Positions 8,891 through 58,297 of a DNA stretch of 64,000 nucleotides are shown here, in pieces. Source of the DNA: Anaerocolumna sp. MB42-C2 (GTDB lineage Bacteria > Bacillota > Clostridia > Lachnospirales > Lachnospiraceae); the NCBI RefSeq assembly GCF_030913705.1, contig NZ_CP133190.1, forward strand, positions 620,001 through 684,000, given 5' to 3'. The notes below the pieces were generated by a model that made no database searches, was not told the DNA's origin, and was given only the letters and a program-made list of their open reading frames with translations. The stretch's first letter is position 1. Every line of letters starts with the position of its first letter. The position numbers were made by a program, and so were the translations under genes.

Positions 8891-10144
8891 CTAGGCCAGC
8901 ATTTTAATATCTGCTCCTAACCCTCTTAAGTCTCTACATATATCCTCATATCCTCTTTCAATAAAATTAGGATTATATATAGTTGTTTTACCTTTTGCCA
9001 TAAGTCCAGCTATAACCAGTGCTGCACCACCCCTTAATTCGCTGGCATATACTTCACATCCCATAAGCTCAGGTACACCATTTATAGTAGCTTCCCTGCC
9101 TAAGATGCGAATATCTGCTCCAAATTTAATCTGTTCTTTTACATTTTGATATCTTCCCTCAAATATCTCTTCTACAATCTTGCTGGTGCCTGCAGCCATC
9201 ATAAGAACCGACATAAACTGTGACTGCATATCGGTTGGAAAACCAGGATAAGGCATAGTACGGATAAAAGGTATTGGTTTTGGTCTTCCCGAAGAAGCAA
9301 TAATAATATAGTTTTCTCCGGTTAATATACTACAGCCCATTTCTCGTAATAACTTAATAACAGTGTGAAGGCTGTCACCTCCAATCCCTGTTAATACCGC
9401 TTCTCCCCCTGTTCCGGCTACAGCGGCTAAATACGTGCCTGCCACAATTCTGTCAGAGCAAGCGGTGAATTCAATAGGATACAAAAATTCAACTCCCACG
9501 ATTTCAATTGTTTCCGTTCCTGCACCTCTGATCTTTGCTCCAGCGGAATTTAAAAATTTACATAATTCTGTTATTTCCGGTTCTTTTGCAGCATTAATTA
9601 TACTGGTTCTGCCTGAGGCCAATACTGCAGCAAGTATTACATTCTCTGTCGCCCCAACACTTGGGAATTTTAAGAAGATTTCATTGCCTTTTATACCGGT
9701 AGTAGTACATTTAATCAGCCCGTCCTCTTCTTCCAATGAGATGTTCATATCCTGAAAAGCGCTTAAATGATAATCAATTGGTCTCGCGCCAATGGTACAC
9801 CCTCCCGGATACGTAATGGTTACCGAATGTGTACGGCCTAACAAAGCACCCATTAATATGATGGAAGATCGCATCATTTTTACATATTCTTCCGGAACTG
9901 TCGATGTATTAAGCTTAGTAGTATCTATAATGAGTGAAGATTTTTCCCACCATACGATACAGCCGATTGCCTCTAATATTTTAATCATATGAAAAACATC
10001 CAATATTTTTGGGCAATTATTCAGCTTTATTATTCCATTTACCAGTACAGTAGCTGCCAAAATCGGTAATACTGCATTTTTTGAACCTTGTATGTTAACT
10101 TCACCATTCAGCTGCTTTCCTCCATTGATCTCTATAAATGCCAT
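8891..10144 (-). CDS. murA: UDP-N-acetylglucosamine 1-carboxyvinyltransferase MurA
   Basis: A 417-residue EPSP-synthase-fold enzyme that transfers enolpyruvate from PEP to UDP-GlcNAc, the first committed step of peptidoglycan synthesis in the cytosol. The family motif GSKNAVLPILAA with its lysine lies near residue 20, and the active-site cysteine, the target of fosfomycin, is in GGCTIGARPID (about residue 115). The start at 10144 (MAFIEINGG) is preferred over an upstream in-frame ATG because GAGGTG lies five bases before it and other MurA proteins begin here. It is located between ftsW and ftsQ. Confidence 0.96.
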   Translation of the reverse strand: MAFIEINGGKQLNGEVNIQGSKNAVLPILAATVLVNGIIKLNNCPKILDVFHMIKILEAIGCIVWWEKSSLIIDTTKLNTSTVPEEYVKMMRSSIILMGALLGRTHSVTITYPGGCTIGARPIDYHLSAFQDMNISLEEEDGLIKCTTTGIKGNEIFLKFPSVGATENVILAAVLASGRTSIINAAKEPEITELCKFLNSAGAKIRGAGTETIEIVGVEFLYPIEFTACSDRIVAGTYLAAVAGTGGEAVLTGIGGDSLHTVIKLLREMGCSILTGENYIIIASSGRPKPIPFIRTMPYPGFPTDMQSQFMSVLMMAAGTSKIVEEIFEGRYQNVKEQIKFGADIRILGREATINGVPELMGCEVYASELRGGAALVIAGLMAKGKTTIYNPNFIERGYEDICRDLRGLGADIKMLA

Positions 10145-54543: not shown

Positions 54544-56082
54544 ATGACCAGAAATAAGAGCAATTTAATTAAAGGTACCGCAGTACTCACATTAGCGGGT
54601 CTGGCCACCCGTTTTATCGGTTTTTTTTACCGCATTTTTTTATCCAACGCGATGGGTGCTGAGATCATGGGAATCTATCAGCTGATATTTCCGATTTATA
54701 TGATCTGTTTTACCATATTTGCTTCCGGCATTCAGACAGCCATATCAACCTTGGTGGCCAACGAACTAGGTAAAAAACATTATAAAAATCTACAGAACGT
54801 ACTGAAGATCGGCATTATTATGTCATTAAGTGCAGCTATAGTATTAGCCTTTCTTGTATTCCGCTATTCCAATACGATTGCAGCCAATATACTAAGAGAA
54901 CCAAGCTGTGCCTCCTCTTTACGGATACTTGCTTATGCTTTCCCTTTCTGCGGTATAACGGCCTGCATTAATGGTTATTATTATGGTTTAAAAAAAGCAG
55001 GAGTACCCGCAACTACTCAATTATTAGAACAAATAATACGTGTGATTTTTGTTTATATCGTTGCCACATATGTTGGAAAGGGAGATATAAAAATCACCAG
55101 CGAATTGGCAGTCTTAGGTGTTGTAATCGGGGAGATTGCATCACAGGTTTATAATATAGCGTCCCTGTATTGTACCAGCACTCCAAGGGAGTTATCACAC
55201 CTTGCTAAATCTGCACCAACGTCGGCTTATAAAAACGAAAAAATAACCGGCCGTCTGTTTCGATTGACTGTTCCTCTGACGGCAAACCGGTTGCTAATTA
55301 GTATATTACATAGTGTGGAGGCTATTCTTATACCGAATATGCTGAAAAAATATGGCTTAAGCAATTCGGAAGCATTAAGCATTTACGGTATCTTAAACGG
55401 TATGTCCATGCCTTTTATTATGTTTCCCTCAGCAATAACAAATTCCTTATCCGTATTACTGCTTCCAACCATTTCAGAAGCCAGGTCCTTAAGTAATGAT
55501 AACATGATTAAAAAAACTACTGCAATTTCTATTAAATATAGTATGTTAATCGGTATTTTAAGTGCCGGAATTTTTGTCAGTTTCGGCCAGGAATTAGGTA
55601 ATATCATATTTCATAACGAACTTGCCGGAAGCCTGCTTACTATCTTAGCCTGGTTATGTCCGTTCCTGTATATTACCACAACATTAAGCAGCATTATTAA
55701 TGGTTTAGGATTGGCCCATTTAACCTTTGCCAATTCCGTAGTCGGTATGTCCATCCGTATATTACTGATACTTTATCTGGTACCGAAACAGGGTATGAAT
55801 GGTTATTTAATCAGTCTCTTAATCAGTCAATTAGTAATTACAGCCTTTGATGGTTTCATCGTAATTAAAAGAATAAAACCTCCTTTTGATGCAGCGGATT
55901 TTATATTAAAACCGGGAATTATTGTAGCCTTAAGCGGTTACCTGTTATACAGGTTATATGAATATATAGCACCGGCGGCTGGAAGTCTTTCCTTTGTGTT
56001 AGGATGCTGTTTTTTAGTCTGCGTATCTTTTATATTATTACTTGGCATAACAAAAGCTGTTTCCTTAAAAGATTTTAAGTAA
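54544..56082 (+). CDS. SpoVB/MurJ-like polysaccharide flippase (MVF/MATE superfamily)
   Basis: A 512-residue polytopic protein with about 14 membrane helices, from KGTAVLTLAGLATRFIGFFY at the start to two hydrophobic helices at the end. The LSNAMGAEIMGIYQLIFPIY segment and GYYYGLKKAGVPA are characteristic of the SpoVB/YtgP group, which moves undecaprenyl-linked precursors such as lipid II across the membrane. Which member it is (SpoVB, Amj-like partner or another exporter) cannot be decided. The start at 54544 has AGGAA six bases upstream. The 3' end overlaps the convergent cyclase gene by eight bases. Confidence 0.86.
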   Translation: MTRNKSNLIKGTAVLTLAGLATRFIGFFYRIFLSNAMGAEIMGIYQLIFPIYMICFTIFASGIQTAISTLVANELGKKHYKNLQNVLKIGIIMSLSAAIVLAFLVFRYSNTIAANILREPSCASSLRILAYAFPFCGITACINGYYYGLKKAGVPATTQLLEQIIRVIFVYIVATYVGKGDIKITSELAVLGVVIGEIASQVYNIASLYCTSTPRELSHLAKSAPTSAYKNEKITGRLFRLTVPLTANRLLISILHSVEAILIPNMLKKYGLSNSEALSIYGILNGMSMPFIMFPSAITNSLSVLLLPTISEARSLSNDNMIKKTTAISIKYSMLIGILSAGIFVSFGQELGNIIFHNELAGSLLTILAWLCPFLYITTTLSSIINGLGLAHLTFANSVVGMSIRILLILYLVPKQGMNGYLISLLISQLVITAFDGFIVIKRIKPPFDAADFILKPGIIVALSGYLLYRLYEYIAPAAGSLSFVLGCCFLVCVSFILLLGITKAVSLKDFK

Positions 56083-57604
56083 ACAGCTTAAATCCATCCT
56101 TGCCTTGGTCTTTCACGTCATATAAAGCTTTATCTGCACAATTTAGCAATTGGTTATAATTTATTCCGTCCCTTGGATATAAGGAAACTCCAATACTGCC
56201 GGAAACGGATATTTCATACTCTTCTTCCCGATAAACAGATCTTAATGCACGCTGCAGCAAATCTGCTTTTATAAAAACTGTTTCTTTATTGGAGATATCT
56301 CCTATAAACACTGCAAATTCATCTCCGCCGATTCTTCCTATGATTTCACCTGAAGTAAAAATCATCTTTACCTGATTAATTACAAAAGATAATATCTTAT
56401 CTCCCTGCAAATGCCCATATCTATCATTAATGCTTTTAAAATCGTCAATATCCACGATCATAAAAATGTGTCTTGTATCACTGTGTTTTTGTATGTAATG
56501 GTCAATTAAATCCTTTGTAGCACTTTTGTTGTATACACCGGTTAATGGATCCCTTTTTGCTTTGTATTCTAATGTCTGCAGTTCTTTTTTGTGTAAATCA
56601 ATATTAACTATCTTACCGATAACCCGGGTGGCACGTTTATAATCATCATAAATTGTTTTACCTCTGGTATGGCACCATACATAATCACTTTTAATGTCCT
56701 TGATACGAAATTCTGATTCAATCATCTCTTTACCGCTGCGCAGTGCCCTGCAATACTCAGAAAATACCCCCATATCTTCCGGATGAATCATGATTTCCGC
56801 ATTGGTCTTTAGATCTGAAAAATGAGGTATTACCGGGGCCCTGCCATATAGCTCCTTATATTTATCTGCAAAGGTCATCAAGTCCTCATCAATCTCATAT
56901 TCAAATAAAATGTCATTGGATATTTCGGCTGCTACCCGATACCGTTCCTCTTCCAATAAAAGTCTTTCCTGCATTAATTTTGATTCCGTTATATCGATCA
57001 GTACAGCGGATACGGTATGTTTTCCGTCTTTATCTTCAATATAATTACCATTTAATAATATCCAAATGATATTACCGCTTTTGGTTTTCATCCTGATTTC
57101 CTTTTGAATGTATTCCCCATTAAGGAAGTCATCTTTCAGTGCCGTAAATTTATCCAAATCATCCTGACAGACTAATGTTGTAACACTGTTCTCTAATTCC
57201 TGTTGTATTTCTTCTTTGCTGTAGCCTATAATATCATAATAACCGTTACTTGCATAAATTATCTCATAATTATGCTCCAAATTAAAATTAACAAAACCTG
57301 CATGAATACTGTTGGTTATATGCCTTAACTCCAGGGAAGCTTCTTTTACTTTTTTTTCACTGGTATACTTTAATCTTAAAATAATAATAATCGCCAGTAT
57401 ACACAATAAAACTAAGCAGAAGCAAAATACAGCAAAATAAACGGTATTCGAATACATATAAGAATCTTCCGTTAAATTTTCCTGAGCGTTAACTATTTTC
57501 GAAGAAAAAAATAAGACCAGTATAATATTTACGAATAAAATTGAGACAAATCTGCTACGCAAAGCTTTGTGAAAAATACAACATAATGTTGTCCCTTTTT
57601 TCAC
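56075..57604 (-). CDS. Membrane diguanylate cyclase with two PAS domains
   Basis: A 509-residue protein. Two hydrophobic helices (about 20-37 and 55-77) are followed by a PAS domain (about 95-210, ending VLIDITESKLMQ), a second PAS/PAC domain (about 220-340), and a GGDEF domain (345-505) with DPLTGVYNK and the active signature RIGGDEFAVF (GGDEF at 426-430). It should make c-di-GMP from two GTP. The residues where the inhibitory I-site RxxD would stand (417-420) read TSGE, so product inhibition at that site is absent. Start at GTG, six bases after AAGGTGG. The long leader contains a c-di-GMP-I riboswitch. Confidence 0.94.
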   Translation of the reverse strand: MKKGTTLCCIFHKALRSRFVSILFVNIILVLFFSSKIVNAQENLTEDSYMYSNTVYFAVFCFCLVLLCILAIIIILRLKYTSEKKVKEASLELRHITNSIHAGFVNFNLEHNYEIIYASNGYYDIIGYSKEEIQQELENSVTTLVCQDDLDKFTALKDDFLNGEYIQKEIRMKTKSGNIIWILLNGNYIEDKDGKHTVSAVLIDITESKLMQERLLLEEERYRVAAEISNDILFEYEIDEDLMTFADKYKELYGRAPVIPHFSDLKTNAEIMIHPEDMGVFSEYCRALRSGKEMIESEFRIKDIKSDYVWCHTRGKTIYDDYKRATRVIGKIVNIDLHKKELQTLEYKAKRDPLTGVYNKSATKDLIDHYIQKHSDTRHIFMIVDIDDFKSINDRYGHLQGDKILSFVINQVKMIFTSGEIIGRIGGDEFAVFIGDISNKETVFIKADLLQRALRSVYREEEYEISVSGSIGVSLYPRDGINYNQLLNCADKALYDVKDQGKDGFKLFT

Positions 57605-57724
57605 CTGATTCCACCTTCTTTAATTCACATTAATATTTATCATTACTGTTCTCTTTTGTAAATAAAACTCTGCAACATTCATTAGCATAAACCGGAAGAA
57701 ACATTATGATTTATTTCTTCGGTT

Positions 57725-57843
57725 CGCGTGTGCACTTACATTCCTTAAAGCTTGCTTGCAAATGCTAGTTTTACCAACGCGTAATAATGACGCCCACTTG
57801 TTGAACGTCTTTAAATTAAACGCTATCCGCTCAAGTGAACGTC
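57725..57843 (-). ncRNA. Second folded leader RNA of the diguanylate cyclase, class unknown
   Basis: Lies between the riboswitch terminator and the cyclase gene, beginning at the start point of its own promoter. Two domains can be drawn on the minus strand. The first is a 12-bp stem GACGTTCACTTG (57832-57843) with CAAGTGGGCGTC (57789-57800), closed by G-U pairs, around a 31-base loop that can fold again. The second is a CGCGT/ACGCG closure (57777-57781 with 57725-57729) enclosing GCATTT/AAGTGC. A further hairpin, CCGAAGAAA with TTTCTTCCGG, follows nearer the gene. AAGACGTTCA occurs twice. I do not recognise the family; it could be a riboswitch, a small RNA or a repeat element. Confidence 0.45.
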
Positions 57844-57851
57844 TTATGCAA

Positions 57852-57881
57852 ATTATAACATCGGTTTAGAGCAGATGTTAA
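57852..57881 (-). promoter_or_regulatory. Second promoter upstream of the diguanylate cyclase
   Basis: TTAACA (57876-57881) and TATAAT (57852-57857), the latter in an extended TGnTATAAT context, are 18 bases apart. This promoter starts just after the T run of the riboswitch terminator, so transcription from it would bypass c-di-GMP control. Confidence 0.6.
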
Positions 57882-57883
57882 AT

Positions 57884-57913
57884 TAAAAAAAGCCCTGTGA
57901 ATAACACAGAGCT
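57884..57913 (-). terminator. Terminator of the c-di-GMP riboswitch
   Basis: A 9-base stem AGCTCTGTG/CACAGGGCT (one G-U pair, five-base loop, 57891-57913) is followed by seven T. It lies 33 bases after the aptamer. UUGCA in the 3' strand of aptamer stem P1 can also pair with UGCAA at about 57917-57921, close to the terminator, which offers an alternative fold. Confidence 0.8.
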
Positions 57914-57945
57914 TAAATTGCATAGAAACAGTAATCTAAATTACC

Positions 57946-58032
57946 TTTGTGCAACCGGCTGTCGTATCTGTAATCAGATTTAGACCCTAAGCTTTGCGTC
58001 CTTATCTTTCGATAAGTTTGCCCTTACCAAAT
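57946..58032 (-). promoter_or_regulatory. c-di-GMP-I (GEMM) riboswitch aptamer
   Basis: The minus strand carries the class I c-di-GMP consensus in order: GGGCAAAC, a stem capped by a CGAAAG tetraloop (UUAUCGAAAGAUAA), GGACGCAAAGC, then a second stem with GGGUCUAAAUCUGAUUACAGAU, and ACGACAGCCGGUU. A flanking P1 stem UUUGGUAA with UUGCACAAA closes it with one bulge. The GAAA tetraloop and receptor are diagnostic of the class. It precedes a terminator and then the diguanylate cyclase gene, so the cell's c-di-GMP level should control cyclase expression. Whether ligand turns expression on or off is not certain from the sequence. Confidence 0.9.
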
Positions 58033-58040
58033 ATAGGAAT

Positions 58041-58069
58041 ATTGTACTACATATTCCCATCTTATGCAA
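58041..58069 (-). promoter_or_regulatory. Promoter of the riboswitch leader
   Basis: TTGCAT (58064-58069) and TACAAT (58041-58046) are 17 bases apart on the minus strand and would start transcription within a few bases of the aptamer. The upstream DNA 58070-58297 is AT-rich; apart from a weak CCCCGAG/CGAGG inverted repeat near 58262-58277 it holds nothing I can name. Confidence 0.55.
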
Positions 58070-58297
58070 CACCTTTTATTAATTTAAAACAAAATATTAA
58101 CGACATACATTCGCATATTTAGCTTTAAAATCATTTTATTTTCATAACTTTTTCATATTAACACTAAATGATAATTTTTACAACTCATTTTTATACCATT
58201 TGAGTAATATTTTAAACAAGCTGCTTGTCTTATCCTCTTATCTTTCAAACATAAAATAACCTCGAATGGCTCGGGGTCAAGTCTGTTTAAAAAATAA

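Follow-up and report, generated by a model that had tools for sequence, protein, structure and literature searches.

A predicted OFF-type c-di-GMP-I riboswitch in front of a diguanylate cyclase without an I-site in Anaerocolumna

An OFF-type c-di-GMP-I riboswitch in the leader of a PAS-PAS-GGDEF gene of Anaerocolumna sp. MB42-C2 probably places this diguanylate cyclase under feedback by its own end-product; in the same reading, the loss of the I-site (RxxD) from the cyclase seems older and the riboswitch a later acquisition, within Anaerocolumna. The sequence basis consists of a conserved promoter, aptamer and terminator together with complementarity between one terminator arm and the aptamer core, and from folding we infer how the pairing would change without and with c-di-GMP. 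Coordinates (Table 1) are those of the stretch of 64,000 nt that was analysed (the window), which belongs to a genome of 6.44 Mb in one contig (G000).

Table 1. Features of the cyclase gene and its leader (window coordinates).
Feature	Position	Strand	Basis or remark
c-di-GMP-I (GEMM-I) riboswitch aptamer	57947..58032	-	RF01051, 80.5 bits
Leader promoter TTGCAT-17-TACAAT	58041..58069	-	Kept across orthologous leaders
Aptamer strand ACGCAAAGCUUA (antiterminator strand), complementary to terminator 5' arm	57988..57999	-	Transcript folding
Terminator 5' arm UAAGCUCUGUGU, common to terminator and antiterminator	57904..57915	-	Transcript folding
Intrinsic terminator, 10-bp stem (57914-57890) and T run	57883..57914	-	Terminator scan, MFE folds
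Promoter-like site TTAACA-18-TGtTATAAT	57852..57881	-	11/12, extended -10
Diverged copy of ~100-nt palindromic repeat dispersed in A. sedimenticola (G004)	57685..57784	-	Repeat search
Diguanylate cyclase gene (PAS, PAS, GGDEF)	56075..57604	-	ORF, Pfam
Codons for TSGE (residues 417-420), I-site position	56345..56356	-	RxxD absent
Codons for GGDEF signature (residues 426-430), intact	56315..56329	-	Translation, ortholog alignment

The cyclase gene and its leader

A cmscan search of the whole window gave a single Rfam match above gathering, the RF01051 aptamer (E 3e-14), which spans model positions 1-87, that is its full length, and whose score is above the gathering score of 35 bits. This covariance-model search bears out the first-pass annotation, which had placed a class I c-di-GMP aptamer in the leader; judged by its sequence the element is a genuine c-di-GMP-I riboswitch, with ligand binding predicted. 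The aptamer lies between the leader promoter and the intrinsic terminator, 342 nt upstream of the cyclase gene. The promoter, TTGCA[A/T]-17-TACAAT with a variable spacer, is present in 10/10 orthologous leaders; it matches the consensus at only 8/12 positions (hand count) and was missed by a simple promoter scan. A search of plasmid DNA returned two records with short matches only, both within the aptamer region.

The cyclase reading frame starts with GTG and encodes 509 residues, in which Pfam recognizes PAS_3 in two stretches and one GGDEF domain (124.5 bits). Hydrophobic stretches are visible by eye at the N-terminus, and the protein is probably membrane-bound. The motifs DxDxFKxxND and GGDEF are invariant in 8/8 aligned full-length orthologs (the window's own included); the protein is, on these grounds, a diguanylate cyclase with intact metal and substrate residues and predicted enzyme activity. 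An I-site was counted where RxxD stands five residues ahead of GG[DE]EF. The window cyclase has TSGE at this position, as had been noted at first pass, and so carries no I-site by this definition.

Promoter, aptamer and GGDEF gene occur in the same arrangement in 10 of 15 genus genomes (relatives titled Anaerocolumna), and the full-length orthologs (n = 8, own included) have 49-81% identity to the window cyclase. Among the five remaining genomes, two, G001 and G009, have the gene itself. The leader of G009 lies off the contig. In G001 (L322/L331, G001:C35) the promoter is kept as GTACAATAGCCCTATAT; an aptamer is not recognisable in the leader, and Rfam returns nothing for it up to E 2. The other three (G008, G010, G014) are incomplete genomes (63-81%) and gave only weaker matches of at most 38% identity. 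Two orthologs look damaged, G004 having a broken frame and G007 reading GWDEF behind a weak terminator.

Terminator and start codon are separated by ~275 nt, which hold a promoter-like site and the diverged repeat, none of this having been mentioned at first pass. The site may permit a riboswitch-independent start that bypasses the switch: its 11/12 matches were reached in 4/300 shuffles, and 11/12 with the TG of the extended -10 in 0/300. Were this site to drive the gene, the riboswitch would be real and matter little in this strain. We regard that as unlikely, because the homologous place reads TATTAT in G004 and other sequence in the other eight leaders (by eye), whereas ten genomes retain the leader promoter, the aptamer and the strand that forms the antiterminator.

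The ~275-nt stretch folds better than its shuffles (z -3.9), and an Rfam search of it gave nothing close to a gathering score. Positions 57685-57880 are whole in only 2/15 genus genomes (G000 and G004); a shorter relative in G012 and a remnant in G007 were recognized by eye. The repeat copy is the sole match in the window's own genome; in G004 the ~100-nt repeat has up to 14 further matches (E 0.001), 15 with the orthologous leader. In G004 (loci L079-L093) the repeat, a palindrome of two hairpins, is often located just past a hairpin that resembles a terminator (by eye). We considered and rejected an intron or a second structured RNA in this stretch, given the lack of an Rfam match, its presence in 2/15 genomes and the repeat that makes up part of it.

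Terminator, antiterminator and predicted sign of the switch

The terminator that the first-pass annotation had read in the leader was recovered as a 10-bp stem with a T tract; it is the only one located in 57550-58250, a region for which shuffles give 0.2 terminators on average. It begins 32 nt past the aptamer end, and no strand is common to both elements. The 5' arm of the terminator, UAAGCUCUGUGU, is complementary, bar one mismatch, to the strand ACGCAAAGCUUA of the aptamer core. The pairing came to light when a truncated G004 transcript, ending before the 3' arm, was folded for its MFE structure. Partition-function folding of growing transcripts gives the antiterminator a mean pairing probability of 0.6-0.99 shortly before synthesis of the 3' arm and the terminator hairpin a probability of 0.8-1.0 once that arm is made, in each case in 9/10 orthologs, among which the leaders of G005, G011 and G013 are identical up to that point. 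The exception is G007 (L012), where neither antiterminator nor terminator is strong. For G006 (L011) folding does yield the hairpin, which lacks a U tract; at this locus (G006:C46:12774-15994) a long inverted repeat without mismatches now takes the place of the terminator hairpin, either as a real change or through an assembly fault.

The core-arm pairing was compared with several controls. For four of the ten leaders the arm was shuffled; pairing as strong as that of the native arm arose in 0/100 shuffles (own), 0/100 (G002), 2/100 (G011) and 2/100 (G003). The P3 strand GCUUAGGGU is present in 10/10 cyclase leaders against 0/59 other genus aptamers (60 over the cut-off, one of them not readable). 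When the own arm was ranked together with 24 arms of other switches against the cyclase core, it came 1, 1, 1, 2 and 3 of 25 in five cyclase leaders; conversely, with the own arm held against the cores of other families, the own core ranked 1, 1, 1, 6 and 6 of 25. Simple duplex energies against shuffled arms were marginal (p 0.02-0.30, six cyclase leaders). Covariation of terminator arm and aptamer core as a rule of the whole genus found no support: in 12 groups of genus switches, cognate pairs had no advantage over deranged ones (P 0.24), so the antiterminator is no general rule of the genus; the same test on four selected groups gave P 0.10.

In the full-length transcript without ligand, folding lets the terminator outcompete the antiterminator, and read-through must thus be kinetic. 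Without c-di-GMP the nascent RNA would pair ACGCAAAGCUUA with UAAGCUCUGUGU, which would break the aptamer and delay the terminator, so that polymerase would run past it; once c-di-GMP is bound, the aptamer would keep its ACGCAAAGCUUA strand, the terminator would form and transcription would stop. Such an OFF switch would exert negative feedback of c-di-GMP on expression of the cyclase. The terminator follows the aptamer and does not overlap it, as in Cd1-type switches, and an antiterminator that excludes both appears, by folding only, in 9/10 orthologs. With no strand common to aptamer and terminator, and with the aptamer disrupted by the antiterminator, ligand is expected to promote termination. 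The riboswitch therefore probably switches the cyclase off, in the manner of Cd1, when c-di-GMP is abundant, and the computation supports the first-pass proposal of negative feedback at the RNA level on a cyclase without RxxD, with the OFF sign predicted by folding.

If ligand promoted read-through instead, the cyclase would be self-reinforcing, with positive feedback and possible bistability. ON-type GEMM switches are known (pilM, in the sections of PMC9262584 available to us), and yet a folded aptamer is no hindrance here to a terminator 32 nt downstream with which it shares no strand, and the strong alternative pairing uses up the aptamer core. An ON switch is thus improbable, and the OFF reading is followed below.

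The I-site and the history of the riboswitch

The first-pass annotation had further suggested that RNA-level feedback may have taken over from allosteric product inhibition; losing the I-site and gaining the riboswitch would then be a single functional exchange. Protein searches of 397 family genomes and of 295 relatives of G267 supplied close relatives of the cyclase, and the comparison makes this exchange very doubtful.

The absence of RxxD is in itself unremarkable. The motif is found in 4/16 distinct GG[DE]EF domains of the own genome and in 25/87 of those in six genus genomes (orthologs 0/6, others 25/81), a count for which 30/120 distinct domains without GG[DE]EF and 3 from three further genomes were set aside and seven riboswitch-linked loci had been removed beforehand, to be treated separately. 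With RxxD in only 25/87, absence (62/87) is the common state, and the I-site contrast of this cyclase is not special.

Some observations do fit an exchange. Of the 54 tree rows of known state, all 11 that are led by a riboswitch lack RxxD, whereas the motif is present in 15 of the 43 without a riboswitch (absent from 28). The near relatives L245-L250, L333, L334 and L335 carry RxxD (RGDD, RGND, RDED, RSTD) and have no riboswitch match, and L337 (G258) combines a separate riboswitch of its own (79.5 bits) with KNGD at the I-site position.

Against it stands, above all, the sister genus g254, in which 27/27 orthologs lack RxxD (the position is xEGE-like) and 0/27 have a c-di-GMP-I match over the available flanking DNA, which for L359 and L382 extends only 220 and 532 nt upstream. 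The G001 ortholog has lost the aptamer, yet it too is without RxxD, and L296, a riboswitch-led REC-GGDEF protein outside the cyclase subfamily, reads RKTD and so keeps the motif. Likewise outside this subfamily, G014 and G001 each have a GGDEF gene that lies ~1.1 kb past an aptamer without being the first gene there, and that reads RESD or RETD.

The tree points the same way. The Anaerocolumna rows, L336 (VSGE, no upstream DNA) and g254 form a clade of 40 rows (support 99/96) with RxxD in none, inside which the riboswitch is found in the Anaerocolumna part only; the RxxD rows and L337 all fall outside it. The AU test does not reject the 12 Anaerocolumna rows as a monophyletic group (p-AU 0.438). 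Parsimony counts 3 riboswitch changes and 2 I-site changes, and independent events are few: of three independent pairs differing in riboswitch, the I-site agrees in 1 and does not differ in 2. The tree has 56 rows of our choosing, among which L334 is identical to L245 and L247 to L248; L249 and L347 were dropped, having been missed by the domain pattern. One protein search contributed 30 loci, of which 15 are in the tree and L347 was tried; L330 is a gene already present as L149. Distant loci left out comprise L350, L351, L352, L356, L358 and L347 with RxxD, L346, L349, L353, L354, L355 and L357 without it, and L342 and L345, which were not read; the left-out distant loci were only partly scanned for riboswitches.

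A riboswitch gain coinciding with I-site loss, with riboswitch-less relatives keeping RxxD, is not what the relatives present. Replacement of the I-site by the riboswitch was rejected on g254, G001 and L296, the larger sample having reversed the early impression in its favour that the first I-site-bearing relatives, L245-L250 and L333-L335, had given by their lack of a riboswitch. The simplest history is that the I-site loss is older and that the riboswitch was gained later in Anaerocolumna and lost again once. Looking at relatives has weakened an attractive causal story; it has also provided natural controls, namely g254 orthologs in which no riboswitch was found and a G001 ortholog with the promoter kept and the aptamer lost.

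Ligand, further switches and known systems

It is highly improbable that the aptamer is the cGAMP-binding GEMM variant, which we take to share the c-di-GMP-I fold and to owe its specificity to one position, given that the G at this position of the model consensus (AaGGCAAA), presumably indicating c-di-GMP where the cGAMP variant would have A, is kept in 10/10 leaders. That the G11-equivalent position of GEMM guides ligand specificity is described in the available part of PMC9262584.

The 15 genus genomes contain 70 c-di-GMP-I aptamers over the cut-off (71 listed). By motif, one of them precedes a PAS-GGDEF(degenerate)-EAL gene in each of seven genomes, G000, G002, G004, G005, G011, G012 and G013 (loci L006, L132, L133, L136, L140, L142 and L144), and the cyclase switch is present in 7/7 of these; one further motif match, L131, was taken for chance. 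The EAL protein of G000, the only one of the seven scanned, has a Pfam EAL match of 221.6 bits. In G007 an aptamer stands ahead of a fragment resembling the EAL gene. No terminator was found in 5/7 EAL-gene leaders scored, and the other two have a hairpin of only -1.8 kcal/mol; L133 was dropped from this scoring, its aptamer being the same as another's. The folds around the Shine-Dalgarno sequence vary between orthologs (7/8 leaders; L144 was unmatched by the pattern). The EAL-gene aptamers are perhaps translational switches. One may speculate, though we doubt it, that the genus has a two-armed RNA homeostat for c-di-GMP, in which a cyclase lineage already without an I-site later gained RNA feedback and the same class of RNA precedes the phosphodiesterase-like EAL gene in seven genomes. 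If this were true and the EAL switch were ON, the same signal would shut synthesis and turn on degradation.

Further targets in the genus, assigned by eye, include methyl-accepting chemotaxis-like proteins and a nucleotide-sugar dehydrogenase-like protein. A c-di-GMP-I aptamer of 79.7 bits (L002, G000:C1:969819-969905, minus strand) stands before a frame that by eye resembles a site-specific recombinase, and is possibly on a mobile element. In the family sample 32/80 genomes have an RF01051 match. The examination covered 68 stretches downstream of aptamers, a subset of those listed and including a few with tandem aptamers, and 28/68 extend only ~1.5 kb past the aptamer; a home-made profile found a GGDEF domain in 4/68, so that a cyclase target is unusual in the family sample. 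At the I-site position three of these read RKTD (L296), PEKD (L270) and NSGM with GGDEL (L276), and the fourth, L308, is degenerate with EAL. Tandem c-di-GMP-I aptamers of other genera of the family lie at G080:C10:55501-55750 and 9382-9599 and at G027:C3:47284-47496.

The kind of switch described here is known, since GEMM RNAs before c-di-GMP metabolic genes have already been reported: many of the genes associated with GEMM RNAs have to do with making or degrading c-di-GMP (Sudarsan et al., 2008, via the accessible part of PMC7266159). The likeness lies in a product-sensing RNA ahead of genes of synthesis or degradation. A 2019 review, in the portion at hand (PMC6366702), calls riboswitch control of c-di-GMP metabolic genes rare; here it would concern ten genomes for the cyclase and seven for the EAL gene, and the cyclase switch would be a conserved case in which the product feeds back directly, through a riboswitch class for which this is said to be rare. 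The switch-cyclase pair and c-di-GMP riboswitches of Anaerocolumna are not described in the available portions of PMC6366702, PMC6200980, PMC9262584, PMC11477304 and PMC7266159 or in limited library searches.

The closest parallel is Cd1 of C. difficile, an OFF switch in which, according to the text available from PMC9262584, aptamer and terminator do not overlap, can be present together, and are in competition with an antiterminator that forms at the expense of ligand binding; C. difficile class I switches are described as OFF in the accessible part of PMC11477304 also. Cd1 (flgB operon) and the Anaerocolumna switch have a class I aptamer and the same logic of aptamer and terminator against antiterminator. 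The antiterminator here uses the P3 5' strand and the GACGCAAAG junction, that of Cd1 residues 86-87 (PMC9262584, same portion). Cd1 controls a flagellar operon, whereas the Anaerocolumna switch precedes a cyclase. C. difficile also has a c-di-GMP-II riboswitch with a group I intron. This system, mentioned in the part of PMC11477304 available, resembles the present one in its c-di-GMP-sensing leader and in a long structured stretch before the gene; here that stretch has neither an intron nor a c-di-GMP-II match, is whole in 2/15 genomes and contains a repeat. With the GGDEF catalytic domain and product feedback on c-di-GMP synthesis, the system is also akin to PleD. Diguanylate cyclases of the PleD type are product-inhibited; in the Anaerocolumna cyclase, by contrast, the RxxD I-site is absent and the feedback is predicted to act on transcription.
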